A stretch of 64,000 nucleotides of DNA from Mycolicibacterium palauense (GTDB taxonomy: Bacteria > Actinomycetota > Actinomycetes > Mycobacteriales > Mycobacteriaceae), in assembly GCF_002592005.1 (NCBI RefSeq), contig NZ_NVQF01000013.1, positions 30,438 through 94,437 on the forward strand, written 5' to 3'. Below are positions 29,882 to 55,933 of the stretch, piece by piece. The notes under the pieces are model-generated. The model did not search any database, was not told the DNA's origin, and saw only the letters and a program-made list of their open reading frames with translations. Position numbers and translations under genes: made by a program. Each line of letters opens with the position of its first letter. Positions within the stretch are counted from its first letter, which is position 1.

Positions 29882-30906
29882 TGCGCACCTTTCGACGCTC
29901 CGGGGCCCGCCCCGGGGATCCCGGGGATCCCGGGGATGTAGCCGAGTCGCTTGTCCACCACGTTGTGCAACGGCTCGCCGGCCAGCCAGCGCCGCACGTT
30001 GGCGGTGAACTGGGCGGCCAGGGTGTCGCGCCACCCGACGACGTCACCGGACATGTGCGCGGTGACGGTCACCCCGGGCGCATCCCAGAGCGGGTGGTCG
30101 GCCGGCAGCGGCTCGCGGTCGAACACGTCCAGGGTGGCCGCGGCGATGCCGCCGCCGTCGAGCGCCGCCAGCAGGGCGGCCTCGTCGACCATCGGTCCGC
30201 GCGCGACGTTGACCAGGTGCGCATCGGGTTTCATGGCCGCCAGCACCGCGGCGCCGACGAGGCCGCGGGTGGCCTCGGTCAGCGGGGCTGCCAGCACCAG
30301 ATGATCACACCAGCCGACCTCGGCGGCCAGGTCGGCGCTGGCGACCACCTCGCCGAAATCCGGGTCACCGGAGCGGGGGGTCCGCCCCGCGCCCCGTACC
30401 TGCAGGCCGGCCGCGCGCAGCAGCCGGGCGATCTCGCGGCCGATGCCGCCGGTCCCGACCACCAACGCACGCGCCCCGGCGACGCTGCGGGTCTCCCGGT
30501 GTTTCCACCGGTGCCGCCGCTGCAGGTCGAAGCTGGCTCGGCTGTCCTTGGCGTGGGCGATGACCGCACCCAGCACGTATTCGGCGATCGGGCGGTCGAA
30601 CACCCCGTGGGCGTTGGTGACCACGACGTCGGACTCGCGCAGCGCGTCGAAGAGCAGCGTGTCCACCCCGGCGGCGGTCACGTGGATCCACTCGAGGCTG
30701 TCCGCGTCGTCCCAGACGTCGCGGACCGCGGTGGAGAAGAAGTCCCACAGCAACAGCGCCTGCGCTCCGCGTACCGCCGCAGACAGGTCGTCCGCCGTGC
30801 AAAACCGCAGCTCAACGGGCAGTTCTTCGAGGCCGGGCGGACGATCGGTGGCGTTCTCACACAGCACAGCGATCGTCGGAGTACCCACGTCCTCCGATAC
30901 TGCCAA
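29878..30906 (-). CDS. D-2-hydroxyacid dehydrogenase (NAD-binding)
   Basis: 342 residues if it starts at TTG 30906; GTG 30888 is the next option and neither has a good ribosome binding site. Rossmann motif LVVGTGGIGREIARLL (about 145-160), the arginine in NVARGPMVDEAAL, the glutamate in FDREPLP and the histidine in VTAHMSGD complete the catalytic set of this family. It would reduce a 2-keto acid or oxidise a D-2-hydroxyacid. First gene of a minus-strand operon with the amidase and DUF3830 genes; the divergent promoter region upstream contains a GntR-type palindrome. Confidence 0.85.
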   Translation of the reverse strand: MAVSEDVGTPTIAVLCENATDRPPGLEELPVELRFCTADDLSAAVRGAQALLLWDFFSTAVRDVWDDADSLEWIHVTAAGVDTLLFDALRESDVVVTNAHGVFDRPIAEYVLGAVIAHAKDSRASFDLQRRHRWKHRETRSVAGARALVVGTGGIGREIARLLRAAGLQVRGAGRTPRSGDPDFGEVVASADLAAEVGWCDHLVLAAPLTEATRGLVGAAVLAAMKPDAHLVNVARGPMVDEAALLAALDGGGIAAATLDVFDREPLPADHPLWDAPGVTVTAHMSGDVVGWRDTLAAQFTANVRRWLAGEPLHNVVDKRLGYIPGIPGIPGAGPGASKGAQ

Positions 30907-41878: not shown

Positions 41879-42442
41879 TCAGTTCTCCTTGAACGGGAAG
41901 CCCAGTGCCCGCAGCAGCGCGCGTCCCTCGTCGTCGTTCGTCGCCGAGGTGACGACGGTGATGTCCATCCCCCGGGGCCGGTCGATGGAGTCCACGTCGA
42001 TCTCGTGGAACACCGACTGCTCGGTCAGCCCGAAGGTGTAGTTGCCGGTGCCGTCGAACTGCTTGGGGCTCAGCCCGCGGAAGTCGCGGATACGCGGCAG
42101 CGAGATGGCGATGAGCCGATCCAGGAACTCCCACATCCGGTCGCCGCGCAGCGTGACGCGCGCGCCGATCGGCATGCCCTCGCGCAGCTTGAACTGCGCG
42201 ATGGACTTGCGGGCCCGGCGGATCTCCGGCTTCTGACCCGTGATCAGCGCCAGGTCGTTGACCGCGCCGTTGATCAGCTTGCCGTCGCGCGCGGCGTCGC
42301 CGACGCCCATGTTCACGACGACCTTGACCACGCCCGGGATCTGCATCACGTTGGCGTAGTTGAACTCCTTGTTCAGCGCGTCCCGGATCTCCTCGCGGTA
42401 GCGCTGCTTCAGCCGCGGCTGAACCTTCTCTGCAGTAGTCAT
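41879..42442 (-). CDS. rplE: 50S ribosomal protein L5
   Basis: 5S rRNA-binding protein of the central protuberance. 187 residues with [34 protein letters not shown] and [20 protein letters not shown]. Between rplX and rpsN. Confidence 0.97.
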
Positions 42443-42456
42443 CAGATGCTCTAGTC

Positions 42457-42774
42457 CTAGATGTCTTTGCCGTTGGTCTTGGCGATGCGGACGCGCTTGC
42501 CCGACTCCTCGTCGACGCGGTAGCCGACACGCGTCGGCTTGCCGTCGGAGTCGACGACCATCACGTTGGACACGTGGATGGGCGCCTCCTGGGTCACGAT
42601 GCCGCCGGACTGCGCGCCCCGCTGGTTGGCCGAGACCGGGGTGTGCTTCTTGATGCGGTTGACACCCTCGACCAGCACCCGGTTACGGGTGGGGTACGAC
42701 TGGATGACCTTGCCCTTGGCGCCCTTGTCCTTGCCGGAGATGACCAGCACGGTGTCGCCCTTGTGGATCTTCAT
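42457..42774 (-). CDS. rplX: 50S ribosomal protein L24
   Basis: Assembly-initiating L24, 105 residues: KOW motif [20 protein letters not shown], then [19 protein letters not shown]. Directly adjacent to the rplN stop codon with no spacer. Confidence 0.97.
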
Positions 42775-43143
<369 letters not shown>

Positions 43144-43386: not shown

Positions 43387-43414
43387 ATCGCGGCTCAGCG
43401 GGGTCCTGTTCACC

Positions 43415-43484
43415 CCGCCCGCACCGCGGGCCCAGCTCACCCGCCCGCACCGCGGGCCCAGCTCACCCGCCCGCACCGCGGGCC
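43415..43484. repeat. 26-bp tandem repeat (2.7 copies) at the end of the Rid-like gene
   Basis: Copies start at 43415, 43441 and 43467; each contains CCCGCACCGCGGG, itself a short hairpin. The third copy runs into the coding end of the Rid-like gene (stop codon 43463-43465). The period is not a multiple of three. The hairpins may act as a terminator for the operon that ends here. Confidence 0.8.
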
Positions 43485-43972
43485 GCCACCAACTCCACCT
43501 CGACCGGAGCCCCGGACGGCAGGGACTGCACACCGACGGCGGTGCGCGCCGGGAGCGCCCGGGCGCCCAGTTCACGGCGGATGGTCTCCGAGGCCCCGTC
43601 GGCGACCGCGCTGAGCTGCACGAAACCGGGGGCGCAGGCAACGTACACCGTCATCCGCAGGCATCGCACCTCGGTGTCGCCGGGCGGCAGGGCCCAGCGC
43701 ACGGCGGCCAGGGCGTTCTCCGCGGCCAGTCCGGCGGCCGCGGAGGCCACCGGAACAGGCACGCCCGCCCCGACCACCCCGGTGACGACCAGTTCACCGT
43801 CGCGGCGCGGCGTCATGCCCGCGGTGTAGACGAGGTCGCCGTGGCACACGGCCGGCAGGTAGTCGCCGTGGGCGACGGGGTCACGACGGTCGCCGTGGGC
43901 GACGGGGTCACGACGGTCGCCGTGGGCGACGGGGTCACGACGGTCGCCGTGGGCGACGGGGTCAGTCGACAC
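43463..43972 (-). CDS. Rid family (RidA-like) protein with repeat-extended N-terminus
   Basis: 169 residues from GTG 43972, which overlaps the gamma-glutamyltransferase stop codon. The Rid core begins at about residue 38 (AVCHGDLVYTAGMTPRRDGE), with AALAAVRWALPPGDTEVRCLRM and a C-terminal PVEVELVAA. RidA-type enzymes hydrolyse reactive enamines/imines; the catalytic arginine usually found near the C-terminus (R in ...CAR...) is not obvious here, so it may be a Rid4-7-type member without deaminase activity. Residues 4-37 consist of four copies of DPVAHGDRR (the last is incomplete). Last gene of the HDO operon. Confidence 0.72.
   Translation of the reverse strand: MSTDPVAHGDRRDPVAHGDRRDPVAHGDRRDPVAHGDYLPAVCHGDLVYTAGMTPRRDGELVVTGVVGAGVPVPVASAAAGLAAENALAAVRWALPPGDTEVRCLRMTVYVACAPGFVQLSAVADGASETIRRELGARALPARTAVGVQSLPSGAPVEVELVAARGAGG
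43862..43964. repeat. 27-bp tandem repeat, 3.8 copies, coding DPVAHGDRR
   Basis: Copies at 43862, 43889, 43916 and 43943 (the last truncated to 22 bp) are identical where complete. The unit is 9 codons, so copy number changes keep the frame of the Rid-like gene. The last copy includes the stop codon of the upstream gamma-glutamyltransferase gene. Confidence 0.92.
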
Positions 43973-45560
43973 CGAGCGCCACCCCCTCCTGTCGGGGGTC
44001 GGCGGCCCCGGACAGGATTCCCCGGTCGTCGCGGGAGATGACCTGGGCGCTGCCGCCCTCGCCGAGCGCGGGTTTGACCACCACCCGGTGGCCCGCCTCG
44101 GACAGCGCGGCCCGCACCGGGGCGGCCAGACCGGCCTCGACCCGCAGCTCGTCGGGCGCCCCCACCACGTCGGCGTCGGACCCGGGGAAGACGGTGAACC
44201 GGGGGGCGGCGACCGCCTCGGCGGGGTCGAGACCGTGGTCGAGCAGGTGCGAGAGCAGTTGCATGTTCCACTGCACCTGCCCGTCGCCGCCCGGGGTGTT
44301 GCCGACGTGCAGCAACTGTCCCGCATCGTCGGTGACGATCCAGGCGTTGAGCGTGTGCAACGGTTTGCGGCGCGGGGCGACCGCGTTGGGGTGGCCGGGA
44401 GTCAGGTAGGCACCGCGGCCGAGCCGGTTGTTGAGCGCCACCCCGGTGCCCGGCACGGTGAACTTGGCTCCGAACGTGAACGCCAGCGAGTGGATGAAGC
44501 TGACCGCGCGGCCCTGCGCGTCCACCGCGACGGTCGAGGTGGTGTCGCCGGCGCGGACGTCGATGGGCGCCGAGCGCCCGCGGCGTTCGGCCAGGTCGCG
44601 GCGTTGGGCCTCGATCCGCCGGGGATGCAGCACGTCGCGGCTGCCGCTGTTGTCGCTGCCGCACAGCGCCAACCGGTCGGCGAAGGCCAGCCGGGCCGCC
44701 CGCGCCATCCGGTCCACCCCGTCGGCCGACAGCCAACCGTGGAATCCGACGACGCCGTCGCACAGCGCGGCCTGGTGCAGCACCATCCACCCCGGCGTCG
44801 GCAGCGGGGTCTGATGGACCACCGCACCGGCGTAGCGCCCGGTGATCGCCGGCTCGGCCGTCACCGCGGCGGTGGCCGCCCACTCGTCGCCGCTGAACGG
44901 CGCGCCGCCCGCGCGCAGCGCCGCGACGGCCCGCTCGGCGAAGGTGCCGGTGTAGAAACCGGCCGGGTCCAGCGCCAGGGCCCGGATCGTGGCAGCGAGG
45001 TCGGGCTGTGCCAGCACACTTCCCACGTGCGGGGGCCCACCGGTGCCGGTGTACGCCGCGGCCAGCCCGGGGTCGGCGCGCACGGCCGACAGCGCCTCGG
45101 TGACGTCGCCGGCGGTGCGCGCCGAGCACGGCAGCCCGTTCTCGGCGAGGCGGGCCGCCGGCTCCCACAGGTCGTGCAGGGACCGGCTGGCGCCGCCGGC
45201 GTGCAGGGCCGCCAACGCCGCGGGGGCACCGGGAACCGCCACCGCCCGCGCCCCGTCCAGCGGTATGGCCGCCAACCCGTGCTCGGCGTAGAACTCGGGG
45301 GTGCCGCCGTCGGGGCCGTATCCGGAGCCGTTGACGGTCCAGACCCGGCCGTCGGGTTCGCGCACCACGGCGAACGCGTCGCCTCCGATACCGCACTGCC
45401 CGGGCAGGGTCAGCCAGGTCACCGCCGCCATTGCCAGGGTCGCGTCCAGCGCGTTGCCGCCGTCGGCCAGCACCCGGGCACCGGCCAGGCTGGCCGCCGG
45501 GTGACTGCTGGAGACCATCGCCGTCGCCGACAGGGCCGGCGGCCGGTGCCCGGGATTCAT
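43962..45560 (-). CDS. Gamma-glutamyltransferase family protein
   Basis: Ntn-hydrolase of 532 residues. The family begins with VSSSHPAASLAGARVLADGGNALDA, and the autoprocessing/nucleophile threonine lies in GDTTSTVAVDAQG (about residue 350); FAVVREPDG and the PGGDGQVQWNMQLLSH motif near the end are also typical. No signal peptide or lipobox is visible, so it probably acts in the cytoplasm, unlike periplasmic Ggt. Such cytoplasmic members are common in catabolic clusters, where they may cleave gamma-glutamylated or acylated amine intermediates. Starts at the stop codon of the second Rieske gene. Confidence 0.85.
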   Translation of the reverse strand: MNPGHRPPALSATAMVSSSHPAASLAGARVLADGGNALDATLAMAAVTWLTLPGQCGIGGDAFAVVREPDGRVWTVNGSGYGPDGGTPEFYAEHGLAAIPLDGARAVAVPGAPAALAALHAGGASRSLHDLWEPAARLAENGLPCSARTAGDVTEALSAVRADPGLAAAYTGTGGPPHVGSVLAQPDLAATIRALALDPAGFYTGTFAERAVAALRAGGAPFSGDEWAATAAVTAEPAITGRYAGAVVHQTPLPTPGWMVLHQAALCDGVVGFHGWLSADGVDRMARAARLAFADRLALCGSDNSGSRDVLHPRRIEAQRRDLAERRGRSAPIDVRAGDTTSTVAVDAQGRAVSFIHSLAFTFGAKFTVPGTGVALNNRLGRGAYLTPGHPNAVAPRRKPLHTLNAWIVTDDAGQLLHVGNTPGGDGQVQWNMQLLSHLLDHGLDPAEAVAAPRFTVFPGSDADVVGAPDELRVEAGLAAPVRAALSEAGHRVVVKPALGEGGSAQVISRDDRGILSGAADPRQEGVALGVD

Positions 45561-45916
45561 CAGGCCTCCCGGCGCAGCCGACGGGTGGGCCCGACGGGCG
45601 CCTCGCCCGGTTGCAGACCGACGAAGATCTCGCCGTCACGCTCCTGCACCGGGAAGGTCTTGATCGGCTCGGTGGCCGGCGGGCTGATCGGCTCGCCGGT
45701 CTCCAGGTCGAAAGCACTTCCGTGACAAGAGCATCCGATGCCGTCGTCGCGAAGCTTGCCCGAGGACAGCAGGCAGTCCAGGTGCGAGCAGTAGTTCGAG
45801 GTTGCGTAGGCCTTACCACCCAGCCGGGCGACGGCGAACTCGTGTTCACCGGCGTAGAACCGACGGACGATGCCCTCGGGAACCTGCCCGGATCGGGCGA
45901 CACGAACGAATTCCAT
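45560..45916 (-). CDS. Rieske [2Fe-2S] protein (second of the operon)
   Basis: 118 residues, soluble. The Rieske cluster ligands are CSH (YCSHLDCLL, about residues 42-49) and CSCH (CSCHGSAFD), i.e. C-x-H and C-x2-H about 17 residues apart, as in Rieske-type ferredoxins. An additional cysteine sits in each loop and may form the stabilising disulfide of high-potential Rieske proteins. Acts as an electron carrier. It lies 48 bp after the aldehyde dehydrogenase gene. Confidence 0.9.
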   Translation of the reverse strand: MEFVRVARSGQVPEGIVRRFYAGEHEFAVARLGGKAYATSNYCSHLDCLLSSGKLRDDGIGCSCHGSAFDLETGEPISPPATEPIKTFPVQERDGEIFVGLQPGEAPVGPTRRLRREA

Positions 45917-45964
45917 GCTGATACTCCGAATTTCCTGTGGAATCTCTTGTGCTGTGCCGCGTGC

Positions 45965-47410
45965 TCAGCCGGCCGGATCGAGATAGACGGTCTTCTCGGT
46001 GAGGTAGAACTCGGTCATCGACGCACCGGCCTGTTCCTTGAAGGTCGCGGTGGACGACGCCTTGTAGCCGCCGAACGGTGCGTTCATCGCCATGCCCGTC
46101 GTGGGCTGGTTGACCTTCACCAGCCCGGAGCGGCTGCGCCGGGTGAAGTACTGGGCGGTGGCCAGGCTGCCGGTCACGATCGCCGCCGACAGGCCGAATT
46201 CGGTGGCGTTGGCCAGGTCCACGGCCTCGGCCAGCGAGCCGGCCCGCTGGAATGCCAGCAGCGGCCCGAACACCTCCTCGGTCACGATCCGCATACTCGG
46301 CACGGTATCGCTGAAAACCGCTGGTCGTACGAAGAATCCACCACCGGGCCCGTCCTCGTCGACGCCCCCGCAGTGCAGCGTGGCACCCTCACCGACACCG
46401 GCGGACAGGTACTGGCGGAACTTGTCCAGCTGGGCCCGGCTTGCCAGTGCACCCATGTCGACCCCCGGCTCGGCGCCGGGCCCCACGCGCAGTGCGGCGG
46501 CGCGGGCCACCACCCGCTCCAGGACCGCGTCGTGGTTCTCGGCGGTGGCGATCACCCGGCTGGTGCCGGTGCACGCCTGCCCGGACAGCCCGAAGGCGCC
46601 CTTGACGATCAGGGCGGCCGCGCGGTCCGGGTCGGCATCGGGGGCGACGACGACGGGGTTCTTGCCGCCCATCTCCAGCTGCACCCGCCGGTGCGGGCCG
46701 ACCTGCGCGTGGATCCGGCGGCCGACGGCGGTGGAGCCGGTGAACGTCACCGCGGCCACCCGCTCGTCGGCGGCCACCGCCGCCCCCGCGGCCCCGTCAC
46801 CCTGAACCAGGGCGATCACCTCCGGCGGCAGCCCGCCGGCCAGCAGCGCCTCCACGAGCCGCTGCCCCATCAGCGGGGTGATCTCGGAGGGCTTGAACAG
46901 CACCGGGTTGCCCAGCGCCAGGGCCGGCCCGAGCTTGCGCGACGGGATGTTCAGCGGGAAGTTCCACGGCGTGATCGCGCCGACGATGCCGACCGGCTCG
47001 CGCAGGGTGTAGACCAGCGCGTCGCCGGCGGCGGCATGGGTGGTCCCGGCCGCCCGGGTCGCCTCCGCGGCGTAGAACCGCAGGTTCGCCGGGGTGCGGC
47101 TGACCTCGACCCGCGCCTCGGCGACGGTCTTGCCCTCCTCGCGCACCAGCTCGGCGAGGAGCTGCTCGGCCCGTGATTCCAGATGCGCGGCCGCGGCGTC
47201 CAGAATCGCCGCCCGCCGCTCGGGCGGGCTCGCCGCCCACTCGGGGGCGGCCTTGTCCAGGGCCTCGACGGCCAGCTGGACGTCTTCGGGCCCCGAGGCG
47301 GGGAACCGGCCGAGCACGTCGTGCGGGTCGGCGGGGTTGCACCGGGTGAAGGTCCTGCCCGACAGCGCCGAAACCCAGCTTCCGGCAATGAAGTTCGCGC
47401 CCTCGATCAT
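45965..47410 (-). CDS. NAD(P)-dependent aldehyde dehydrogenase
   Basis: 481 residues from ATG 47410, overlapping the stop of the reductase gene (ATGA). Motifs: TPWNFPLNIPSRKLGPA, FTGSTAVGRRIH, the glutamate in EMGGKNPVVVAPD and the nucleophile in GLSGQACTGTSRV. Similar to semialdehyde and vanillin/benzaldehyde-type dehydrogenases. In this operon it probably oxidises an aldehyde released by the oxygenase. The identity of the aldehyde is not visible. Confidence 0.9.
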   Translation of the reverse strand: MIEGANFIAGSWVSALSGRTFTRCNPADPHDVLGRFPASGPEDVQLAVEALDKAAPEWAASPPERRAAILDAAAAHLESRAEQLLAELVREEGKTVAEARVEVSRTPANLRFYAAEATRAAGTTHAAAGDALVYTLREPVGIVGAITPWNFPLNIPSRKLGPALALGNPVLFKPSEITPLMGQRLVEALLAGGLPPEVIALVQGDGAAGAAVAADERVAAVTFTGSTAVGRRIHAQVGPHRRVQLEMGGKNPVVVAPDADPDRAAALIVKGAFGLSGQACTGTSRVIATAENHDAVLERVVARAAALRVGPGAEPGVDMGALASRAQLDKFRQYLSAGVGEGATLHCGGVDEDGPGGGFFVRPAVFSDTVPSMRIVTEEVFGPLLAFQRAGSLAEAVDLANATEFGLSAAIVTGSLATAQYFTRRSRSGLVKVNQPTTGMAMNAPFGGYKASSTATFKEQAGASMTEFYLTEKTVYLDPAG

Positions 47411-48675
47411 GCGGGTGCCCCCTCCTGGCATGCGGCGTCCTGCGCGTCGAGGTCCCCGTAGACGAGGTCCCACAGATCGGTGTCCTCGTCGCGCAGCGCC
47501 GCGGTGTCGACCTCCCGGCCGAGCAGCTCGCGTGCGGCCATCACGTCCTCGCCGCGGTCGACGGCGAAGGCCCCCCGCAGCACCGCGCCGTCGAGGTAGA
47601 AGCCGGTGAAGTCCAGGGCGCCGACGTCGCCGCGGATGACGGGTACGCCGTGGGCGGCCCCGACGAATTGGATGTTGCGTCCGTACTGGTCCGACCAGAA
47701 CCAGTTCGCCTCGTCGCTGGCGGCCGAGCCGCCCAGCATCGCCGCCGCCACCGCGGCGCCCTGGCGGTTGGCGTTGTCGAAGTGTTCGAGGCGGACATGG
47801 CACCCGGCGCGCTCCGAGTAGCGGCGGGCGACGTCGCCGGCGGCGTAGACGTTGGGGATCGCGGTGCGCCCGGCGGCGTCGACGACGATCCCGTCATCGA
47901 TGTGCAGCCCGGACGATGCCGCGACGGCGGTGTTGGGCGTGATGCCCACCCCGATCACCACCGCGTCGGCCTCCACGGGTGCCGCGGTGCCGCGCAGCCG
48001 CGCGACCACGCCGTCGGTGGTGGTGTTCAGCGCGGCGAGCTCGGCGCCGGTCCGGATGTCCACTCCGTTGGCCCGGTGCAGCCCGGCGACCACGTCCCCC
48101 ATGGGCGCGCCGAGCACCCGGCCCAGCGGCACGTCGGCGGCTTCCAGCACGGTGACCGACGCGCCGGCGGCGGTGGCGGTGGCGGCGATCTCCAGTCCGA
48201 TGAAGCCGGCCCCGATCAGCAGCAGACGGCACCCGGGCCGGCACCACGCCGCCAGCCGACGGGCGTCGTCGAGGGTGCGCAGATAGTGCACCAGCTCCGG
48301 GCGCGGACCGGGCACCGCGAGGGTGCGTGGGCTGCCGCCGGTGGCGAACAGCACCGCGTCGGCCGCTATCGCCGGGGCCCCGTCGAGTTCGACCCGCCGG
48401 GAAACGGGATCCACCCGGGTGACCGTGGTCCCGGTGACGATCTCGACATCGTTGTCGGTGATCCAGGCCGGCGGCAGGATCCACAGCGAATCCTGGGAAT
48501 CCCCGGTGTCGGGAGCGGCCAGGAACTCCTTGGACAGCGGCGGTCGCTGGTAGGGCGCATACGGCTCGTCCCCGACGAGCACGATGCGCCCGTCGAAGCC
48601 GTTGCGCCGCAAGTGGCGTGCGGCCACCGCGGCGGCCTGCCCGGCGCCGACGGTGACGTAGGTGTGCCTGGTCAT
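47407..48675 (-). CDS. FAD-dependent ferredoxin reductase (Rieske-type partner)
   Basis: 422 residues from ATG 48675. FAD site VTVGAGQAAAVAARHLRRNG at the N-terminus, the loop EPYAPYQRPPLSKEFLA typical of putidaredoxin-reductase-like enzymes (also HcaD, BphA4), the NAD site LLLIGAGFIGLEIAATA, and the second FAD motif VYAAGDVARRYSE. It would transfer electrons from NADH to the Rieske ferredoxin encoded immediately upstream (4-bp overlap). The open frame continues upstream as a shadow of the Rieske gene. Confidence 0.92.
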   Translation of the reverse strand: MTRHTYVTVGAGQAAAVAARHLRRNGFDGRIVLVGDEPYAPYQRPPLSKEFLAAPDTGDSQDSLWILPPAWITDNDVEIVTGTTVTRVDPVSRRVELDGAPAIAADAVLFATGGSPRTLAVPGPRPELVHYLRTLDDARRLAAWCRPGCRLLLIGAGFIGLEIAATATAAGASVTVLEAADVPLGRVLGAPMGDVVAGLHRANGVDIRTGAELAALNTTTDGVVARLRGTAAPVEADAVVIGVGITPNTAVAASSGLHIDDGIVVDAAGRTAIPNVYAAGDVARRYSERAGCHVRLEHFDNANRQGAAVAAAMLGGSAASDEANWFWSDQYGRNIQFVGAAHGVPVIRGDVGALDFTGFYLDGAVLRGAFAVDRGEDVMAARELLGREVDTAALRDEDTDLWDLVYGDLDAQDAACQEGAPA

Positions 48676-49031
48676 GTCCGGGCCTCCTCTTCGGTCCGCG
48701 CCGGCAGGCCGCCCCGCGGAGTCGGGTCGATGTAGATGGTGCCCGCGGCCTCGTCGACGCGGACGGCAAAGGTTGGCTGGCAACGGTTCTGATCGGCCTC
48801 GTGGCCGGTCTCCAGGTCGAACTGCCACTGGTGGCCCGGGCAGATCACCTTGCCGTGCAACAGCGTGCCCTTGGCCAGTGACCGATCCTGGTGCACACAG
48901 CGGTCGGCGAACGCGTACACCCGCCCCTGGGCCCAGAACAGCGCGATGGCGACACCGTCGACCTCGATCCGCAGTTTGCGGCGGCGGGTGAGTTCCCTGG
49001 TGGTGGCCACCGCAGTCCACTGAATGGTCAT
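48672..49031 (-). CDS. Rieske [2Fe-2S] ferredoxin
   Basis: 119 residues from ATG 49031 (GAGAGGAAACC ribosome binding site region). Ligands CVH (DRCVHQDRSL) and CPGH (VICPGHQWQFD) define the Rieske cluster; FWAQGRVYAFADRC is the strand before it. Single-domain ferredoxin of the sort used in multicomponent dioxygenases, but no Rieske dioxygenase alpha subunit is encoded nearby. Its likely clients are the ferredoxin reductase next to it and the diiron protein upstream. Confidence 0.9.
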   Translation of the reverse strand: MTIQWTAVATTRELTRRRKLRIEVDGVAIALFWAQGRVYAFADRCVHQDRSLAKGTLLHGKVICPGHQWQFDLETGHEADQNRCQPTFAVRVDEAAGTIYIDPTPRGGLPARTEEEART

Positions 49032-49099
49032 GACGGTTTCCTCTCGATCACGCTGGTCCGGGCCGGCGCACCGGACTCTCGCGGTGCGCCGGGCCGACG

Positions 49100-49134
49100 G
49101 ACTCAGACGGAGACTCAGACGGGGACTCAGACGG
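49100..49134. repeat. 12-bp repeat at the end of the HDO gene giving three in-frame TGA codons
   Basis: GACTCAGACGG occurs at 49100, 49112 and 49124 (period 12). On the minus strand each copy contains TGA in the same frame; the HDO stop is the first (49127-49129), with two more behind it. Confidence 0.85.
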
Positions 49135-49861
49135 CGCTGGGCTCCAGTTCGGGGGCGACCTCGGATCCCGCGACATAGGTGTCGTAGAGGCCCTTGGTGT
49201 AGGCGAACCGCATCTCGGCACCCCAACGCACCATCTGCAGGCAGCGCTGCTGCAGCTGCGGGGTGTCGGCGTGATCGAGCACGATCTGATAGCCCCGCTC
49301 GCCGTGGACCACATCGGAGGTGATGTGCAGGTCGAAGAACTCGATCTCGTCCTCGGTGAACCCGTAGACCTCCCGAAGCGGCACGATCTGCTTGGTGTAG
49401 ATGCTGGGCACCTGCGACTCCAGACCGACCACCAGCGCCGCGGTGGCCACCACGAAGTTCTCCCGCGCCGAGACGGCATAGCACCACGACTGCAGCCCAC
49501 GGGTGATCGCGTTCATGTTGTTGGGATCCTCGATACGCTCCCGCGTCGTGCCGCAGGCCTCGCCGAACTTGATCAGCAGGTCGGTGTGGCGGATGTCGGC
49601 CAGTTCCTCCTCGTACATGTTCTGCAGCGTGAAATCCTTTGCGCCGGTGAACTCGTCGGGAGTGTTGGCGTAGATGTTGGCCAGGTAGTCGGCGAACGGC
49701 CCGACGTAGTGGAAGTGGTTCTCGGCCCAGCGGGCGAAGTGCTGCCGTTGCAGCGTGCCCTCGGCCCATGCCTTGGAGAACGAGGCGTTCTTGGCCTCGC
49801 GTCCCTTGATGGCGTTTTCCAGTTCGGCACGGAACTCGTCGCGCCCCAGCAGTTCGGTCAT
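49127..49861 (-). CDS. Haem-oxygenase-like diiron oxidase (HDO, CADD/PqqC-like)
   Basis: 244 residues from ATG 49861, all-helical. The six metal ligands of CADD-like HDOs appear at matching spacing: E85 and H92 (EEELADIRH, seven apart), E148 (GLESQVP), then H179, D183 and H186 (DLHITSDVVH). These fit the two-iron site; members such as CADD, BesC and UndA use O2 to cleave or hydroxylate small amines, amino acids or fatty acids. The gene is followed by a Rieske ferredoxin, a ferredoxin reductase and an aldehyde dehydrogenase. Its substrate is unknown. The C-terminus ends in a slippage-prone repeat. Confidence 0.85.
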   Translation of the reverse strand: MTELLGRDEFRAELENAIKGREAKNASFSKAWAEGTLQRQHFARWAENHFHYVGPFADYLANIYANTPDEFTGAKDFTLQNMYEEELADIRHTDLLIKFGEACGTTRERIEDPNNMNAITRGLQSWCYAVSARENFVVATAALVVGLESQVPSIYTKQIVPLREVYGFTEDEIEFFDLHITSDVVHGERGYQIVLDHADTPQLQQRCLQMVRWGAEMRFAYTKGLYDTYVAGSEVAPELEPSAV

Positions 49862-50059
49862 TCGGGTGGATTCCTTTCCGGAGTGTGGTTCAGCGAAATC
49901 GCTTGCACTGGTCTTTCTTCCGCGTCCCCGCGGAGAACACGTTGTTGCGGTGTCGCCAATTGGGCTGTGCACCAGCGACGTTAACGAGACACCGGCGGCC
50001 TGACCATGGACACAGTCACCGCCCGAGCGGGCTCGAATCGGTCATCGTGCACATCCGGG

Positions 50060-50512
50060 TCAGCGCCGGCCCACCGCCGCGGTCAGCGCCTCGAACTCGG
50101 CCAGGATCGCCGCGCCGACGGCCTTGTCCTGTTCGCCGTTTCCACCGCTGATCCCCACGCCCCCGACGATCTGACCGTCGAAGACCAGCGGGAAGCCGCC
50201 CACGAAGATGGCGAACTTGCCGGGCAGCATGTGACTGATCCCGAACGCCTCGTTGCCGGGCAGCGCCGGGCCGTTCGGCGGTTCGTTGAACAGGTGGGTG
50301 GCGCGTTCGTGGCCGGCCGCGGTGAACGCCTTGGCGATCGCGATGTCCACCCCGGTCAGTCGCGCTCCCGGAAGGCGATGCAGTGCAAGGACATTGCCAC
50401 CGTCGTCGCAGATGCACAGCGTCTGCCGGACGCCGATCTCCTCGGCCTTGGCGCGTCCGGCGGCCAGCAGGGGCAGGGCGTCGTCGAGGGTGATCCGGTG
50501 AATCTGATGCAT
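50060..50512 (-). CDS. GlcG/HbpS-like (DUF336) protein
   Basis: 150 residues from ATG 50512, with an AAGGGA ribosome binding site 9 nt upstream. The family pattern is visible: CICDDGGNVLALHRLPGARL near the start, IAIAKAFTAAGHERAT, and a C-terminal GQIVGGVGISGGNGEQDKAVG. Members bind haem or small ligands and often stand in catabolic gene clusters; HbpS degrades haem to iron. No signal peptide. It is the first minus-strand gene of the HDO operon region, 198 bp before the HDO gene, and lies opposite the PucR regulator. Confidence 0.8.
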   Translation of the reverse strand: MHQIHRITLDDALPLLAAGRAKAEEIGVRQTLCICDDGGNVLALHRLPGARLTGVDIAIAKAFTAAGHERATHLFNEPPNGPALPGNEAFGISHMLPGKFAIFVGGFPLVFDGQIVGGVGISGGNGEQDKAVGAAILAEFEALTAAVGRR

Positions 50513-50833
50513 GCTGGGCGGTCCCTTCATCGTGGGGTGGGTGGCCGTCACGGCGACGTCGCCGAGACGATGCGAGCCGGCGCCGGTCGAGTGCGGCTCA
50601 CCTGCGCCTGCCGAGATGTCTACCAACCTCGCCGCCACCGCGACACGGTCAAGATGTCCGGTTTCGGGTGGCGGCCACGGTCAAAGTGCACATAGTGTGG
50701 TGCACGGCCAGGGTGTATTCGGTTAACCGGAGTCCACAACCACGATCCACAACCACGGTGACGAGAAGACCGGCGAGACGATCGCCGGACGACCGACACC
50801 CCTCCGCCCGGTGAAGAACAGCGCAGGTGACAC
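50513..50833. promoter_or_regulatory. Divergent promoter region of the HDO operon and pucR-like gene
   Basis: 321 bp holding several candidate regulator sites: two GTGCAC palindromes 14 bp apart (50686-50691, 50700-50705), a 10-bp palindrome CGGTTAACCG (50720-50729), and a direct repeat TCCACAACCACG(A/G) twice (50733-50745, 50746-50758). Their clustering suggests binding of the PucR protein; which site it uses is not decided. No confident -10/-35 was found. Confidence 0.5.
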
Positions 50834-52501
50834 ATGCCGGCACACGACGACGATCGGATGACCGTCGCAGGACTGCTCGACGAATCGGTGATGGCGGATG
50901 CCCGCGTGATCGCGGGCGACGACCGTCTCGACGAGGAGCTGCAGTGGGTACTGCCGCTGTCCGAGGTGCTCACCCGGCCCGACCCGCTGGACGCCGTCGG
51001 CGTCTACACCCGCCCGGATGCGTTGCGCACCAGTCATTCGGCGCTGCCGGCGCTCCTCGCGCGCGGGGCCACCGCGCTGCTGGTCGACGGTTCGGTTCCG
51101 GCCGATCTGCCCCCGGAGGCCCTGCCCGCGCAGCTGCCGGTGATCGAGATGGGTTACCCCGTGGGGTTCGCCGCGCTGAACCGGCTGCTGGCCGAGCGGG
51201 CGTTGAGCCGCGAGGTCCACGTGATGCGGTACTCGACGCACGTGCACGCTTCGCTGGCGGGGTTGTTCCACCGCGGTGCCGGGCTGGGCATCCTGATCCG
51301 CGAGGTGTCCAGCCTGGCGCGCAACCCCGCCATGGCGCTGGATTCCCGGGGCGCCGTCGTCGCGCATCACGGACTGGGTGCCGAGCCCGCCGCGGCGTTC
51401 GCCGAGCCGATCGCCGCGCTGCTGGCGGCTCCGGTCCCCGCGGCCGCCCGCCGGCCGGGCGGTCACGACACCAGGGTGCAGACCCTCACCGGGCCGCACG
51501 GCGCCATGTGGACGGTGATCGCGAGCGCGATCAGGCTCGGCAGGGACTTCGAGGGGTGGGTGCTGGTGCTGGTGCCGCACGCGGAGCCCGGCCGCCACGA
51601 CGTCGCCCAGTACGTGGTGGTCACCGAGCAGGCGACGGCGATCATCGGCTCGGAGATGTTGCGGCAGCGCAGCGTCGACGAGGCCGAGGAACGCGCCCGG
51701 GGCGACTTCGTGCAGGCCCTGGTGCACGGCAGTTTCTCCAGCGAACACGACATGCACGCCCGCGCCGAGCACCACGAGTTCGATGTGGACTCGCGGTTCG
51801 GGGTGTTCGTCGCCCCCGGTGTGCTCCCCCACGGGGTGGACAATCCGGCCGCGAGCATGGTGCGCCTGGCCCGCTACGCCGCCGGGGTGGCGCCCGACCC
51901 GATGGTGCAGTCCTATGTGACGGTGATCGGCGACGTCCTGGTGGTCGTGCGCACGCTGCAGGCCGAGGAGGCCGCCGCGATGCGCGCCGAGATGGCCGAC
52001 TACGCCGCCGCCATGGCCGACGAACTCGAGCAGCGGCGCGGTGTCCCGGTGGCGGTGGCGTTCGGCGCCCCCGCCCGCGGCGCCGGCGAGGTCGCGGGCA
52101 GCTACCGGGAGGCGCGGATGGCGCTGGGCATCGCCCGTCGGTTGGGCCGCACCGGCGCCACCCCCTACGGGGGCCTGCGCAGTTTCGCCGTGTTGGCCGG
52201 AGTCGCCGACGCGGACTCCAGCCGCGCGCTCGTCGACGATGTCGTCGCCCCGCTGCGGACCGTCCCGGACCTGTTGGAGACGTTGACCGCCTACCTGGCC
52301 CAGGGCGGCAACGTCAATGCCACGGCGCGCGCGCTGTCCGTGCACCGCAACACGATGCTGTCCAAGCTGGACCGGATCTCGCGCATCGTCGGGCTCGACA
52401 TCCGGCTCCCGGAGAACCAGTTCACGGTGTGGCTGGCGCTGCGGCTGGACCTGCTGACCGAGGTCCGCACCGCGGTGCACCGGGAGGCCAGCTTCGGCTG
52501 A
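50834..52501 (+). CDS. PucR family transcriptional regulator
   Basis: 555 residues. An N-terminal PucR-like ligand domain (about 10-125: DDRLDEELQWVLPLSEVLTR, GVYTRPDALRTS), a middle GGDEF-like/coiled segment, and a C-terminal HTH_30 (about 490-545: LTAYLAQGGNVNATARALSV then HRNTMLSKLDRISRI). PucR-type activators control purine, gamma-glutamyl and other catabolic operons. It is divergent from the HDO operon and the obvious candidate to control it. Ligand not known. Confidence 0.9.
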   Translation: MPAHDDDRMTVAGLLDESVMADARVIAGDDRLDEELQWVLPLSEVLTRPDPLDAVGVYTRPDALRTSHSALPALLARGATALLVDGSVPADLPPEALPAQLPVIEMGYPVGFAALNRLLAERALSREVHVMRYSTHVHASLAGLFHRGAGLGILIREVSSLARNPAMALDSRGAVVAHHGLGAEPAAAFAEPIAALLAAPVPAAARRPGGHDTRVQTLTGPHGAMWTVIASAIRLGRDFEGWVLVLVPHAEPGRHDVAQYVVVTEQATAIIGSEMLRQRSVDEAEERARGDFVQALVHGSFSSEHDMHARAEHHEFDVDSRFGVFVAPGVLPHGVDNPAASMVRLARYAAGVAPDPMVQSYVTVIGDVLVVVRTLQAEEAAAMRAEMADYAAAMADELEQRRGVPVAVAFGAPARGAGEVAGSYREARMALGIARRLGRTGATPYGGLRSFAVLAGVADADSSRALVDDVVAPLRTVPDLLETLTAYLAQGGNVNATARALSVHRNTMLSKLDRISRIVGLDIRLPENQFTVWLALRLDLLTEVRTAVHREASFG

Positions 52502-52510
52502 GTGCGCGCG

Positions 52511-53899
52511 TCACGCCGGCTGCGGATCCGGCCCGAGGAACGACCCGGCGAAACCCACCGCGACGACGACGGCGGCGGCCACGAACACCACCGGGTAGGA
52601 CGCCACACCCAGCGCGATGGCCACCCACGCCGCCCCCATCGCCGAACCGCTGAACCGGATCAGGTTGTACAGACCCAGTCCGGTGCCCTGCTGCCCCGCC
52701 GGTGAGCGGGTGGCTCCGGTGGCCGCCGGGGTCTGCACCAACGCGATTCCGACACCGGCGACCACCAGGACGGCCACCAGGCCCGCCAGTCCGCCGCGCG
52801 GGCCCTCCTGCGCCCCGGCCACGGTCACGGCCAGACCCAGCTGCGCGGCGGCCAGGACGGCCAGGCCCACCCGCATGACCCGTCGCGGCCCGAGCCGGTC
52901 GAGGTAGCGGCCGACGAGCGGTCCCAGCACGGCCATGGTGGCCGGCACGGCCAGCAGGGTCGCCCCCGACACCGATGCGGCCCGGCCGCTGCCGGCCAGG
53001 AACAGGGGCACCGCCAGCAGGATGGCACCCAGGCTGAACATCTGCGCGTAGCCGGCCAGCGAGCTGCGCACGAAGCGCACCTCGGCGACCAGCCGCACCT
53101 GCACGAAGGGCGCCTCCGCTCGCAGGCAGTGCCGGACGAACCCGGCCAGGACGACCACGCCGACACCGATCGTGGCGAGCACCACCGGGGCGGCACCCGC
53201 GCGGGGAATCAGCGCGACACCGGCGATCACCAGGGCCGACCCGACGGTCAGCGCGGCGGCCCCCCAGGCGTCGATGGGCATCCGCAACCCCGGGTAGGCG
53301 GGGACGTGCCGCAGCGTGCCGACCAGCCCCGCCAGCGCCACGGGCACCAGCGGGACGAACACCCACCGCCACCCCCACGCGTCGGCGACGAAACCCCCCA
53401 TGGTGGGGCCGACGGCCTGCCCGATGCCGTTGACCGACGCCCAGGCGCCGACTGCACGTGCGCGCCGGTCGCCGGCGAACATCCAGGTCAGCAGCCCCAT
53501 GACGGCGGGCGCGAAGGCCGCCGCGAGCGCTCCCCCCAGGCACCGCCAGGCGATCAGCAGCGGCAGCGACGGCGCGGTCGCCGCACCGATCGCGCACACC
53601 GCGGTGCCGATCAGCGCCGCGGAGTACACCCGCCGCCGGCCGAAGCGGTCTCCGATCCAGCCGACCAGCGGCATGGTGGCCGTGAAGGTCAGCAGGAAGC
53701 CGACGACGACGAAGACCCCGGCGTCGAGCTCGGCCCCGAACTCCGCCAGGATCGCGGGCAGCGGCACGTTGACGACGTTGTTGCTGACGGTCCCGACCAA
53801 GGTGCCCGCCAACAGCGCGGCCAGGCCCAGCGGGGTGCCGGTGCCCTCCTCCGGGGATGGCGACCCGGCGCCGGACGCGGGCGAACGGGTGTCGGTCAT
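52511..53899 (-). CDS. MFS transporter, DHA2/EmrB-like
   Basis: 462 residues with about 14 membrane segments. Conserved elements: GWIGDRFGRRRVYSAAL (motif A), LIAWRCLGGALAAAFAPAVMG (motif C region) and GSFLGPDPQPA at the C-terminus. DHA2 members export drugs or metabolites with protons. Convergent with the PucR gene (9-bp gap), so its connection to the HDO operon is uncertain. Substrate unknown. Confidence 0.87.
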   Translation of the reverse strand: MTDTRSPASGAGSPSPEEGTGTPLGLAALLAGTLVGTVSNNVVNVPLPAILAEFGAELDAGVFVVVGFLLTFTATMPLVGWIGDRFGRRRVYSAALIGTAVCAIGAATAPSLPLLIAWRCLGGALAAAFAPAVMGLLTWMFAGDRRARAVGAWASVNGIGQAVGPTMGGFVADAWGWRWVFVPLVPVALAGLVGTLRHVPAYPGLRMPIDAWGAAALTVGSALVIAGVALIPRAGAAPVVLATIGVGVVVLAGFVRHCLRAEAPFVQVRLVAEVRFVRSSLAGYAQMFSLGAILLAVPLFLAGSGRAASVSGATLLAVPATMAVLGPLVGRYLDRLGPRRVMRVGLAVLAAAQLGLAVTVAGAQEGPRGGLAGLVAVLVVAGVGIALVQTPAATGATRSPAGQQGTGLGLYNLIRFSGSAMGAAWVAIALGVASYPVVFVAAAVVVAVGFAGSFLGPDPQPA

Positions 53900-54316
53900 C
53901 GGGTATCGGTCATCGGGGGATGCGGCCTCGGTGTACAGGGCGGGGAGCCGGACGGGACGAACCCGTCCACTGTCTCATCCGGGGCCCCTCACCGGCCGTG
54001 CCCGTCCAGGTCAGGGTGCACACCGGGAGGCGCCCCGGCACGCCATCGTGCACAGCGTGCCCGCACATTCACCCGCGGCGCCCGGTGGCGTCACGGCGCG
54101 GTCCCGGTCACCTCGCCGGGCGCGGCGCGCGCATATCACGGGGGCATCGTTACGTCCCCGAAACCGCAGGACACACCGACGACACCGGCGGCGCATATTG
54201 CACAAGGGAAGGCGTACGCGGGTGTGCACTGTGGTCGTTGACCCAGGAGCGCAGCGCGCCGAGCATTCCAGCATCAAACTGCCCAGCCCGAGAGCAGTTG
54301 CAACGAAAGACCACCG
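53900..54316. other. Intergenic region before the ion-transporter-like gene
   Basis: 417 bp between divergent transporter genes; no ORF here looks coding. It contains one small inverted repeat AACTGC / GCAGTT (54277-54299, 11-nt loop) close to the start of the downstream gene, possibly an operator or RNA hairpin. No confident promoter was identified. Confidence 0.4.
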
Positions 54317-55933
54317 ATGGACATACACCTCACCGCGGCCCACTGGGTCTACCTCGGCGGAATTGTCGTCATCCTGATCACGATGGCGCTGCGCAAGAAC
54401 ATCGTTGTGCCCGCCGTGACGGCCACCTTCCTGACCGCCTGGGTGTTCTCGGGCAGCATCATCACCGGGCTGTCCTCGATCTTCAACGCCAGCCTGGTGG
54501 CCGCCCAGGAGCTGTTCAACATCTTCCTGATCATCGCGCTGGTCACCGCGATGCTGGGGGCCCTGCGGGAACTCGGCGCCGACCGCCTGATGGTGACGCC
54601 GTTCCGCCGGGTGATGCGGGCCGGCACCAGCAGCTTCGTCGTCCTCGCCGTCGTCACCTACGTGATCTCACTGTTCTTCTGGCCCACTCCGGCCGTGCCG
54701 CTGGTCGGGGCGGTCCTCATCCCGGTCGCGATCCGCGCCGGGCTGGCCCCGCTGTCGGTCGGCATGGTCATCGCCATCGCCGGGCAGGGGATGGCGCTGT
54801 CCTCGGACTACATCATCAAGGTCGCCCCGGGGATCTCGGCGACCGCCGCGGGCACCGACACCGACAGCGTGGCCGACAAGGCCCTGGTGCTGTCACTGAT
54901 CGTCGGGCTCACCGCGCTGCTGATCACCTATGTCATGCAGCGCCGGACCTGGCAGAAGCCATCCGATGCACTGCTCACCGCGTGGGAGAACAAGGCCGAT
55001 CACCTCGGTGTGGCACCGGGCAGCGACGCAGGGCCCGGTGATGATTCCGCCCCGGACTGCACCGGGCCCCGTCCGTCCCCGTCCCAGGACCCGGCCCCCT
55101 CGCCGTCCCCCTCCGGCGGATCGGCCACCGCGGTGGCCACGGCCGGATCGGCCACAGCGGTGGCCACGGCCACCCGCACCGAACCGGCCACCGGCTTGAG
55201 CACCGACGCGCATCCGGTGCCCAAGCCGGTGCCCGCCAAGGTGTTCGCCGTCCTGGTGCCGATGGCGTACCTGGCCTTCATCGTCTACCTGATGCTGGGC
55301 AAGTTCACCGAGCTGGTGCCGCCCCTGCAGGGCGGCGACGCCGCGGGCATCGTCGGTGGCATCGCCGCCATGGTGCTGTTCGCTGCCAGCGCCGCCAGCG
55401 ACAAGCGCAACTTCCTGGAGAGCTCCTCGACCCACGTCGTCGACGGCCTGGTGTTCGCGTTCAAGGCCATGGGAATCGTGCTGCCCATCGCGGGATTCTT
55501 CTTCATCGGCAACGGCGACTTCTCCGCGCGCATTCTGGGTCTGCCCGAGGGCGCCACCGGGCCGGCGTTCCTGTTCGACCTCATCGCCGCCGCCCAGGCT
55601 CACCTGACCCCCAATCCGTTCGTGTTGGCCTTCGGCGTGCTGTTGGTGGGCATCGTGGCCGGGCTCGACGGCTCGGGCTTCAGCGGTCTGCCGCTGACCG
55701 GCTCGCTGGCCGGCGCGCTGGGGCCGGCCGTCGGGATGGACCCGTCGACCCTGGCCGCGGTCGGCCAGATGGGCAATATCTGGTCGGGCGGGGGAACTCT
55801 GGTGGCGTGGTCGTCGCTGATCGCGGTGGCCGGGTTCGCGCGGGTCCCGGTGCTGACCCTGGCCCGCAAGTGCTTCCTGCCCGTGATGGCCGGGCTGGTG
55901 CTGTCCACCGTGTTCGCCATCCTGGCGTTCTGA
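54317..55933 (+). CDS. Putative membrane transporter, ion-transporter superfamily-like
   Basis: 538 residues, about 12-13 membrane segments in two halves: about 8-210 and 300-535, joined by a hydrophilic loop rich in Pro, Ser, Thr and Ala (about 225-300). The pattern VAAQELFNIFLIIALVTAMLG and LDGSGFSGLPLTGSLAGALG with glycine-rich broken helices is reminiscent of GntP/citrate/NhaC-type carriers, but I cannot name the family. The loop contains a duplicated 27-bp unit. Followed 4 bp later by a DUF1275 gene. Confidence 0.65.
   Translation: MDIHLTAAHWVYLGGIVVILITMALRKNIVVPAVTATFLTAWVFSGSIITGLSSIFNASLVAAQELFNIFLIIALVTAMLGALRELGADRLMVTPFRRVMRAGTSSFVVLAVVTYVISLFFWPTPAVPLVGAVLIPVAIRAGLAPLSVGMVIAIAGQGMALSSDYIIKVAPGISATAAGTDTDSVADKALVLSLIVGLTALLITYVMQRRTWQKPSDALLTAWENKADHLGVAPGSDAGPGDDSAPDCTGPRPSPSQDPAPSPSPSGGSATAVATAGSATAVATATRTEPATGLSTDAHPVPKPVPAKVFAVLVPMAYLAFIVYLMLGKFTELVPPLQGGDAAGIVGGIAAMVLFAASAASDKRNFLESSSTHVVDGLVFAFKAMGIVLPIAGFFFIGNGDFSARILGLPEGATGPAFLFDLIAAAQAHLTPNPFVLAFGVLLVGIVAGLDGSGFSGLPLTGSLAGALGPAVGMDPSTLAAVGQMGNIWSGGGTLVAWSSLIAVAGFARVPVLTLARKCFLPVMAGLVLSTVFAILAF
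55118..55171 (+). repeat. 27-bp duplicated unit in the transporter's central loop
   Basis: Two adjacent 27-bp copies (55118-55144, 55145-55171) differ at one position and encode GSATAVATA twice, in frame. Likely produced by slippage in the hydrophilic loop. Confidence 0.85.

Follow-up and report, generated by a model that had tools for sequence, protein, structure and literature searches.

What does a heme-oxygenase-fold dimetal enzyme (HDO) do in a gene cluster that also encodes two Rieske ferredoxins, a ferredoxin reductase and an aldehyde dehydrogenase (ALDH)? The question is raised by a locus of Mycolicibacterium palauense (NCBI RefSeq assembly GCF_002592005.1, contig NZ_NVQF01000013.1), which we studied within a stretch of 64,000 nucleotides (positions 30,438 to 94,437 of the forward strand; hereafter the window, in which all positions are counted) of a 6.2 Mb genome. 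An initial annotation had listed eight minus-strand genes at this locus, encoding a GlcG-like protein, the HDO, two Rieske proteins (Rieske1 and Rieske2), an FAD-dependent ferredoxin reductase (FdR), an ALDH, a gamma-glutamyltransferase (GGT)-like protein and a Rid protein, together with a divergent pucR gene. Pfam and NCBIfam scans confirmed all of them, with the families as named. The unit had been drawn at 43463..52501; its genes do lie there, but its end does not, since a gene for an MFS transporter and one for a 538-aa permease travel along in 58 and all 63 of the related loci with full flanks, respectively. The unit is thus larger, with 11 genes at 43463-55933. These genes probably form a conserved locus for a catabolic multi-component oxygenase, in which the HDO would have its own NADH-fed electron chain.

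The HDO has the heme-oxygenase-like all-helical fold. At E <= 0.001, its only NCBIfam hits were TIGR04305, the CADD subfamily (89.3 bits, cut-off 200), and the PqqC model TIGR02111 (45.1 bits, cut-off 240), both under the cut-off. We mapped the metal ligands through an alignment with CADD, using what we take to be the CADD ligand numbering. The set of three His and three carboxylate ligands (E85, H92, E148, H179, D183 and H186) was complete in 89 of 89 HDOs. Residue counts here and below are based on hits covering >=75% of the query, window included, and the HDO set also contains L090, L091, L092 and L106. The HDO is predicted to be a dimetal enzyme that uses O2. As CADD and PqqC are the nearest solved structures, the HDO might instead be a self-sacrificing p-aminobenzoate synthase or a PqqC-like cofactor enzyme, with the Rieske chain serving another oxygenase. 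We consider this very improbable. The positions of CADD Tyr27 and Lys152, the sacrificed residue and the amine donor according to passages of PMC11965152, are occupied by Ser29 and Gln158 in all 89 sequences, and the identity as a self-sacrificing synthase was rejected on this ground.

A scan of 84,980 species genomes with the HDO gave 496 relatives, and the best 80 were kept. The nearest loci in named genomes are from Mycolicibacterium; the 80 also include loci from Rhodococcus, Gordonia, Nocardia, Pseudonocardia, Amycolatopsis, Streptomyces, Actinomadura, Nonomuraea, Micromonospora, Blastococcus, Nocardioides and others. Presence and order were counted on the 63 loci longer than 20,600 bases, and 17 with cut flanks were excluded. 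Gene order was derived by tblastn with the 11 window proteins (E <= 1e-8; where matches overlapped, the best was kept; MFS matches below 35% identity were dropped). Other intervening genes are invisible to this reading, but HDO, Rieske1 and FdR together occupy about 1.3 kb. HDO, Rieske1, FdR, Rieske2 and the permease were present in 63/63 loci, ALDH and PucR in 62, GlcG and Rid in 61, and GGT-like and MFS in 58; ALDH hits reach down to 39% and PucR hits to 32% identity, so that orthology is not assured. Loci L059 and L066 lack GGT, Rid and MFS; L062, L064 and L080 lack GGT; L073, L084 and L089 lack MFS; L074 lacks GlcG; and L068 lacks ALDH, GlcG and PucR within its stretch.

HDO, Rieske1 and FdR were adjacent in 63 of the 63 loci, with Rieske1 in between, and this is the sole trio that is never split. 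Downstream of FdR, ALDH and then Rieske2 follow in 47 loci, and Rieske2 follows directly in 16. Altogether, the 63 loci show 16 strings of gene order and strand, some of which differ only in that a gene is lacking or occurs twice, or in where the stretch is cut. Because the same genes recur together through these rearrangements, the gene set is far beyond chance. The initial annotation had called for a check of the neighbourhood in other actinobacteria, and a lack of conservation was looked for in these 63 loci and not found.

The locus is patchily distributed. In a sample of 61 genomes (own genome, 36 of the genus and 24 of the order), a close HDO was present in five, and two more had weak matches of 25-26% identity; the permease occurred in exactly those five genomes. 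Nineteen of 201 family genomes, own included, have the HDO locus. In a phylum-wide draw of 396 genomes, 11 had an HDO match at E <= 1e-15, with a close one in the distant actinobacterium G091 and the own genome only. This distribution suits an accessory catabolic locus. A phage origin was rejected, with no match in 50,697 phage records.

The Rieske proteins of the proposed electron chain have intact cluster ligands. The Rieske motif C-x-H/C-x2-H was present in 79 of 79 Rieske1 and 76 of 76 Rieske2 sequences, and the best NCBIfam model of FdR was HcaD (343.6 bits, cut-off 450). The initial annotation had regarded this chain as dedicated to the HDO, a view that gains from the constant adjacency and from a non-homologous chain found in its place in Burkholderiales. 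Among 72,556 plasmid records, the HDO had six matches, all in Cupriavidus or Caballeronia and 66-71% identical, and four of these loci were examined. They keep the HDO, ALDH, GlcG-like protein and permease, and the window Rieske1, Rieske2, FdR, Rid, GGT and PucR queries had no match in them. Instead, they carry two Fer2 (plant-type [2Fe-2S]) ferredoxins, a small protein and a Fer2-FAD-NAD reductase of the FNR type (Pfam assignments for Caballeronia), together with an ornithine-cyclodeaminase-family (OCD) protein and regulators of the GntR/FCD family, not PucR. The Caballeronia loci also encode an alpha/beta hydrolase of the BD-FAE/Abhydrolase_3 kind. Neither this hydrolase nor the window GGT found a match in the two Cupriavidus loci, where the remaining open reading frames (ORFs) are unannotated. 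Because two unrelated chains attach to one conserved HDO core, the carriers likely exist to reduce the HDO, and this chain swap appears to be the best evidence that they serve it.

The small protein between the two Fer2 ferredoxins (L091:11075-11422) has 116 aa and no Pfam match and is 36-43% identical between Caballeronia and Cupriavidus; it could be an effector or a subunit of the chain. In Caballeronia, two plasmids (L091 and L131) carry the cluster with identical protein accessions; their left flanks differ, and on the right they share the same ISNCY transposases.

The other oxygenase that the chain would serve, if the HDO were a CADD- or PqqC-like enzyme, has a candidate in Caballeronia SBC2, where an alpha/beta pair of Rieske oxygenase genes is located about 4 kb past the permease. 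This pair is absent beside the same cluster in SBC1, none of the 11 genes encodes a Rieske oxygenase subunit, and it is the HDO that Rieske1 and FdR adjoin throughout. We clustered 606 neighbour ORFs from 87 loci; the largest further cluster, unannotated, spans 17 loci, which are Mycolicibacterium-type or otherwise from L011-L031. A Rieske oxygenase subunit as a regular missing partner was rejected, given that no further cluster exceeded 17 of the 87 loci and that the Caballeronia pair is inconstant.

In G091, whose HDO is 74% identical, the HDO, a Fer2-like ferredoxin, a Rieske protein and Rid are on one strand (ferredoxin and Rid assigned by tblastn only). On the opposite strand are genes for GGT-like, OCD, GlcG, ALDH and SDR proteins, the first two of which are separated by an MFS gene and a luciferase-like one. 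By eye, the Fer2-like ferredoxin (L106, about 8635-8998) has Asp in place of the expected third cluster Cys, so its cluster is uncertain.

We next consider what the remaining enzymes suggest about the substrate. The catalytic Cys280 and Glu246 of ALDH were conserved in 75/75 sequences. The initial annotation had given ALDH the released aldehyde, and the scans agree with such a role: the best NCBIfam model was 2,5-dioxovalerate or alpha-ketoglutarate semialdehyde (alpha-KGSA) dehydrogenase in six of six ALDHs, all under the cut-off (469.8 bits against 750 for the window protein with 2,5-dioxovalerate dehydrogenase, NF052305/NF042993) and compared without a control ALDH. The other five, from L091, L106, L052, L079 and L071 (L052 and L079 partial), are 43-58% identical to that of the window. 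The Rid protein exceeds the PF01042 cut-off of 27.3 bits, and its candidate carboxylate-binding Arg111, presumably the active-site Arg, was present in 71/71 sequences. The nearest solved protein to the Caballeronia OCD was 3hdj ("probable ornithine cyclodeaminase"), followed by ketimine dehydrogenases, Delta1-pyrroline-2-carboxylate reductase, alanine dehydrogenases, iminosuccinate reductase and cyclodeaminases, and two OCD proteins had no NCBIfam match at E <= 1e-60. With such mixed relatives, an imine substrate is one of several readings of OCD. Rid and OCD proteins have 2-imino acids as common substrates.

The GGT-like protein bears on a gamma-glutamyl-amine substrate, which the initial annotation had offered. 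In such a route, the HDO would oxidise a gamma-glutamylated amine, ALDH the aldehyde, and the GGT-like enzyme would remove the gamma-glutamyl group; the PF01019 homology and the ALDH in the same operon would fit. The nucleophile Thr341 (GDTT; N-terminal Thr of the small subunit) is indeed kept in 68/68 sequences. However, in 67 of 68 sequences, the remaining one having a gap, Ser79 takes the position that Arg114 has in E. coli GGT, and His or Asn followed by Thr replaces the Ser-Ser of that enzyme in all 68; we take this Arg and Ser-Ser to hold the gamma-glutamyl alpha-carboxylate. A gamma-glutamyl substrate is disfavoured because the protein lacks these binding residues. The nearest solved proteins were an uncharacterised GGT-related protein and a "cephalosporin acylase". 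Moreover, the gene is dispensable, being absent from five of the 63 loci, with an alpha/beta hydrolase in Caballeronia and no hydrolase match in the two Cupriavidus loci, and none of the 11 conserved genes encodes a gamma-glutamyl ligase or a glutamine-synthetase-like protein. The gamma-glutamyl route is therefore improbable and was rejected, and the protein appears to be a gamma-glutamyltransferase by homology, not by function.

The GlcG-like protein raises another alternative. BesC, also an HDO, cleaves a C-C bond with formaldehyde as a product. The HDO could act on an acyclic amine or amino acid in a similar way, either by cleaving a C-C bond as BesC does or by oxidative N-dealkylation. The small aldehyde set free, for instance formaldehyde, would be sensed by the GlcG/EfgA-like protein and removed by ALDH. 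In passages of PMC13108848, C-C cleavage of amino- and fatty-acid substrates is given as a known HDO reaction. The solved relatives of the GlcG-like protein include EfgA, a formaldehyde sensor of the DUF336 family that binds formaldehyde according to passages of PMC8153426, and EfgA K57, S114 and D121 align with K61, S122 and D129 (with an inferred offset of 20 for a tag), which are invariant in 76 sequences. The same passages describe these residues as largely conserved across DUF336 homologues (PMC8153426), so their sharing proves little. The ALDHs resemble 2-oxo-semialdehyde, not formaldehyde, dehydrogenases, and Rid and OCD suggest an alpha-imino acid. We regard release of formaldehyde or a similar aldehyde as rather unlikely.

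No family was found for the permease in Pfam or NCBIfam. Its structural model matches the transmembrane fold of MleN, DASS and TRAP transporters, which carry mostly carboxylates and other anions. A second permease copy, 44-48% identical to that of the window, follows Rid in 11 of the 63 loci, about 6.3-6.5 kb downstream of the HDO start (L011, L012, L014, L019, L023-L025, L028, L030, L031 and L036). A related permease (41% identity) is encoded on a plasmid of Arthrobacter sulfonylureivorans (L094:9565-21642) beside a luciferase-like monooxygenase, a flavin reductase, an amidase and an ALDH. NIPSNAP, VOC and CoA ligase genes and a gene reading as a TetR-Rid fusion are also present, and the stretch is perhaps another catabolic cluster; with a different oxygenase and many other genes, it is a hint only.

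The MFS transporter, whose best NCBIfam match was EmrB-type efflux (under the cut-off), would suit a locus that makes or detoxifies a metabolite exported by this DHA2-like protein and does not feed on an imported compound. Regulators of the PucR and GntR/FCD kinds, like ALDH and Rid, are typically catabolic and point away from this explanation. So does the fact that the most constant transporter is the anion-transporter-fold permease, whereas MFS is sometimes absent. Because no further ORF cluster exceeded 17 of the 87 loci (clusters unannotated), the set has no synthetase or carrier gene as a regular companion. In its favour, HDOs are described mainly in natural-product biosynthesis in passages of PMC13108848. 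On balance, we consider export of a product unlikely.

The region between pucR and glcG contains a candidate regulatory site. When the 23 intergenic sequences of the window and L010-L031 were aligned, conservation was highest in two TTGACC-containing repeats and a -10-like TAGACAT, each block being invariant only in part. In the window, the repeats are TGCACTTTGACC at 50677-50693 and CATCTTGACC at 50646-50659, with TAGACAT downstream at 50616-50622. These blocks may be a PucR-activated promoter and operator.

Taken together, the sequences show which genes are present and conserved, the ligands of the metals and clusters, and the chain exchange in Burkholderiales, and each step of the following scheme is inferred. 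The permease would import the substrate, an N-containing carboxylate, and PucR would switch the operon on. Electrons would pass from NADH through the FAD reductase and the Rieske ferredoxins to the HDO, which would use them with O2 to open a C-N or C-C bond and so give an imine and an aldehyde; the likeliest target is a carboxylate that is N-heterocyclic or resembles an amino acid. Rid would hydrolyse the 2-imino acid, which the OCD-family enzyme would reduce in Burkholderiales, and ALDH would convert a 2-oxoglutarate-semialdehyde-like aldehyde to a 2-oxo diacid. When the substrate yields an amide, the GGT-like Ntn hydrolase (in Caballeronia, the alpha/beta hydrolase) would cleave it, and the GlcG/EfgA-like protein would bind a reactive aldehyde or intermediate. 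That an N-containing carboxylate may yield an imine and such an aldehyde is suggested by ALDH, Rid/OCD and the anion-transporter fold.

As the substrate class, we tentatively prefer an N-heterocyclic carboxylate. The reasons are the 2-imino acids common to Rid and OCD, the leaning of the ALDHs towards 2-oxoglutarate semialdehyde, the recurrence of amide hydrolases, and the related permease with its neighbours on the Arthrobacter plasmid. Candidates are pyrrole-2-carboxylate, pyridinium betaines, proline-type acids and others. The full sequence of events, in which a catabolic HDO with interchangeable Rieske or plant-type ferredoxin chains would open an N-heterocyclic carboxylate to a 2-imino/2-oxo semialdehyde and then a 2-oxoglutarate-like diacid, is possible at about the same low level of confidence.

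Several points weigh against a catabolic oxygenase. The 80 loci were chosen as the closest among 496 and are no random sample, and a single genus contributes many of them. The 19.5-kb stretch of G091 had no match to either reductase, the permease or PucR, so the gene set is not complete everywhere. Amide cleavage is no universal step, given the Cupriavidus loci that no hydrolase query matched and the five loci without GGT. The permease model is moderately confident (pLDDT 73), and function does not follow from a shared fold; the DHA2-exporter look of MFS also fits production or detoxification. To these are added the ALDH scores below curated cut-offs, the wide conservation of the EfgA-type residues and the mainly biosynthetic roles of described HDOs, several of which were served by chemical reductants according to passages of PMC13185094.

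If this full sequence of events is true, the locus would represent a nutrient pathway and an oxygenase architecture that are both new; nutrient breakdown would in any case be an unusual use of the HDO family. It offers an HDO together with the reductase and ferredoxins that are apparently its natural ones, a tightly kept group of partners and a probable permease, which opens the substrate and the supply of electrons to direct tests. Exchange of the chain around a constant core of HDO, ALDH, GlcG and permease would show modular assembly of oxygenase systems, and a single pathway would link three poorly understood families, namely a DUF336 protein, a non-gamma-glutamyl GGT-like hydrolase and a Pfam-less permease.

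Table 1. Features of the HDO locus in the window.
Feature	Position	Strand	Basis
Rid (YjgF/L-PSP) family protein, predicted imine deaminase	43463..43876	-	GTG start; PF01042 46.3 bits
Ntn-hydrolase, gamma-glutamyltranspeptidase superfamily; predicted acylase/amidohydrolase	43962..45560	-	PF01019 (G_glu_transpept) 308 bits
Rieske2, second Rieske [2Fe-2S] ferredoxin	45560..45916	-	PF00355 68.5 bits
Aldehyde dehydrogenase (ALDH)	45965..47410	-	PF00171 (Aldedh) 473 bits
FAD-dependent ferredoxin reductase (FdR), HcaD/AndAa type	47407..48675	-	PF07992 (Pyr_redox_2) 209 bits and PF14759 (Reductase_C)
Rieske1, Rieske [2Fe-2S] ferredoxin	48672..49031	-	PF00355 59.2 bits
HDO, predicted heme-oxygenase-fold dimetal enzyme	49127..49861	-	PF14518 118.1 bits
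HbpS/GlcG (DUF336) protein, predicted aldehyde- or intermediate-binding	50060..50512	-	PF03928 111.5 bits
Conserved intergenic block, candidate PucR operator and promoter	50616..50693	-	alignment of 23 intergenic sequences
PucR-family regulator	50834..52501	+	PF13556 (HTH_30) 71 bits and PF17853
MFS transporter (DHA2-like)	52511..53899	-	PF07690 176.6 bits
Permease, 538 aa, ion-transporter (MleN/DASS/TRAP-like) fold	54317..55933	+	no Pfam match

The features are listed in Table 1. Overlapping starts had been described for most of the eight minus-strand genes; three of the seven junctions do overlap (4, 4 and 1 bp), and the other four have gaps of 48, 85, 95 and 198 bp, with the start codons chosen in the analysis determining these values. 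Beyond Rid, genes for ribosomal proteins L14, L24 and L5 were recognized by eye, and the unit ends at Rid because these genes come next. The locus directly adjoins them (41879-43143), and an L5-like gene, again by eye, lies near the locus in at least eight related loci, which suggests a shared insertion site in Mycolicibacterium. A perfect 27-bp tandem repeat of 3.8 copies (43862-43964) runs from the GGT-like stop into the Rid gene and covers the proposed Rid GTG start, which could shift with the copy number. A perfect 26-bp tandem repeat of 2.7 copies (43414-43484) lies across the Rid stop codon.

Finally, we compared the locus with known systems. No described pathway with this gene set was found in our searches of one open library, which covered no supplements, nor were its known parts found described in this combination; titles and abstract openings on homarine, trigonelline and pyrrole-2-carboxylate held nothing on the gene set. 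The N-heterocycle ring-opening pathways Rut, trigonelline (Tgn) and pyridine share with the locus the logic of oxygenase, ALDH, amide hydrolase and Rid-type protein, but their oxygenases are flavin-dependent enzymes, not HDOs. The Rieske ferredoxin and FAD reductase are homologous, judging by NCBIfam names, to those of the Hca and And aromatic-ring dioxygenase chains; unlike in those systems, no Rieske oxygenase alpha/beta subunit is among the 11 genes, and the HDO takes that place.

The HDO superfamily has more than 10,000 members, of which about a dozen are functionally validated, according to passages of a 2026 review (PMC13108848). The word "ferredoxin" does not appear in the main text of that review, where MboB is named as a redox partner (PMC13108848). 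A survey of the odd neighbours of small Rieske proteins found amidohydrolase-fold oxygenases, and TenA, PF14518 and PF03070 are absent from its main text (PMC10811679). CADD/NePabS, whose sacrificed Tyr and amine-donor Lys the present HDOs lack, is described in passages of PMC11965152 that mention no electron-transfer chain. The closest HDO precedent comes from the mangotoxin cluster, in which the HDO MboA has MboB as its dedicated NAD(P)H redox partner; passages of PMC13185094 present the two as possibly the first pair of this kind. MboAB differs in that it has a single flavin-[2Fe-2S] reductase, with Rieske proteins not mentioned in those passages, and is biosynthetic, with a peptide substrate and an alkyne product (PMC13185094).

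Closest in logic is the Aib monooxygenase AibH1H2GF of Rhodococcus wratislaviensis (PMC7782822, in the passages drawn on here). Its oxygenase is an amidohydrolase-fold pair, whereas the present candidate belongs to PF14518 and PF04909 is not found among the ten proteins scanned; it has one Rieske protein and a reductase, AibF, of the [2Fe-2S]-FMN kind, and the part of its gene table consulted holds no GlcG-like, Rid or GGT-like gene (PMC7782822). Both are clusters of actinobacteria, catabolic in the Aib case and predicted from genes to be so here, that combine a dinuclear oxygenase of non-classical fold, here a predicted one, with a Rieske ferredoxin and an NADH flavin reductase, and both include an ALDH, a transporter and a regulator; the Aib substrate is an amino acid (PMC7782822). 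As in that system, a Rieske ferredoxin and a predicted NADH flavin reductase adjoin the oxygenase gene in every one of the 63 full loci.

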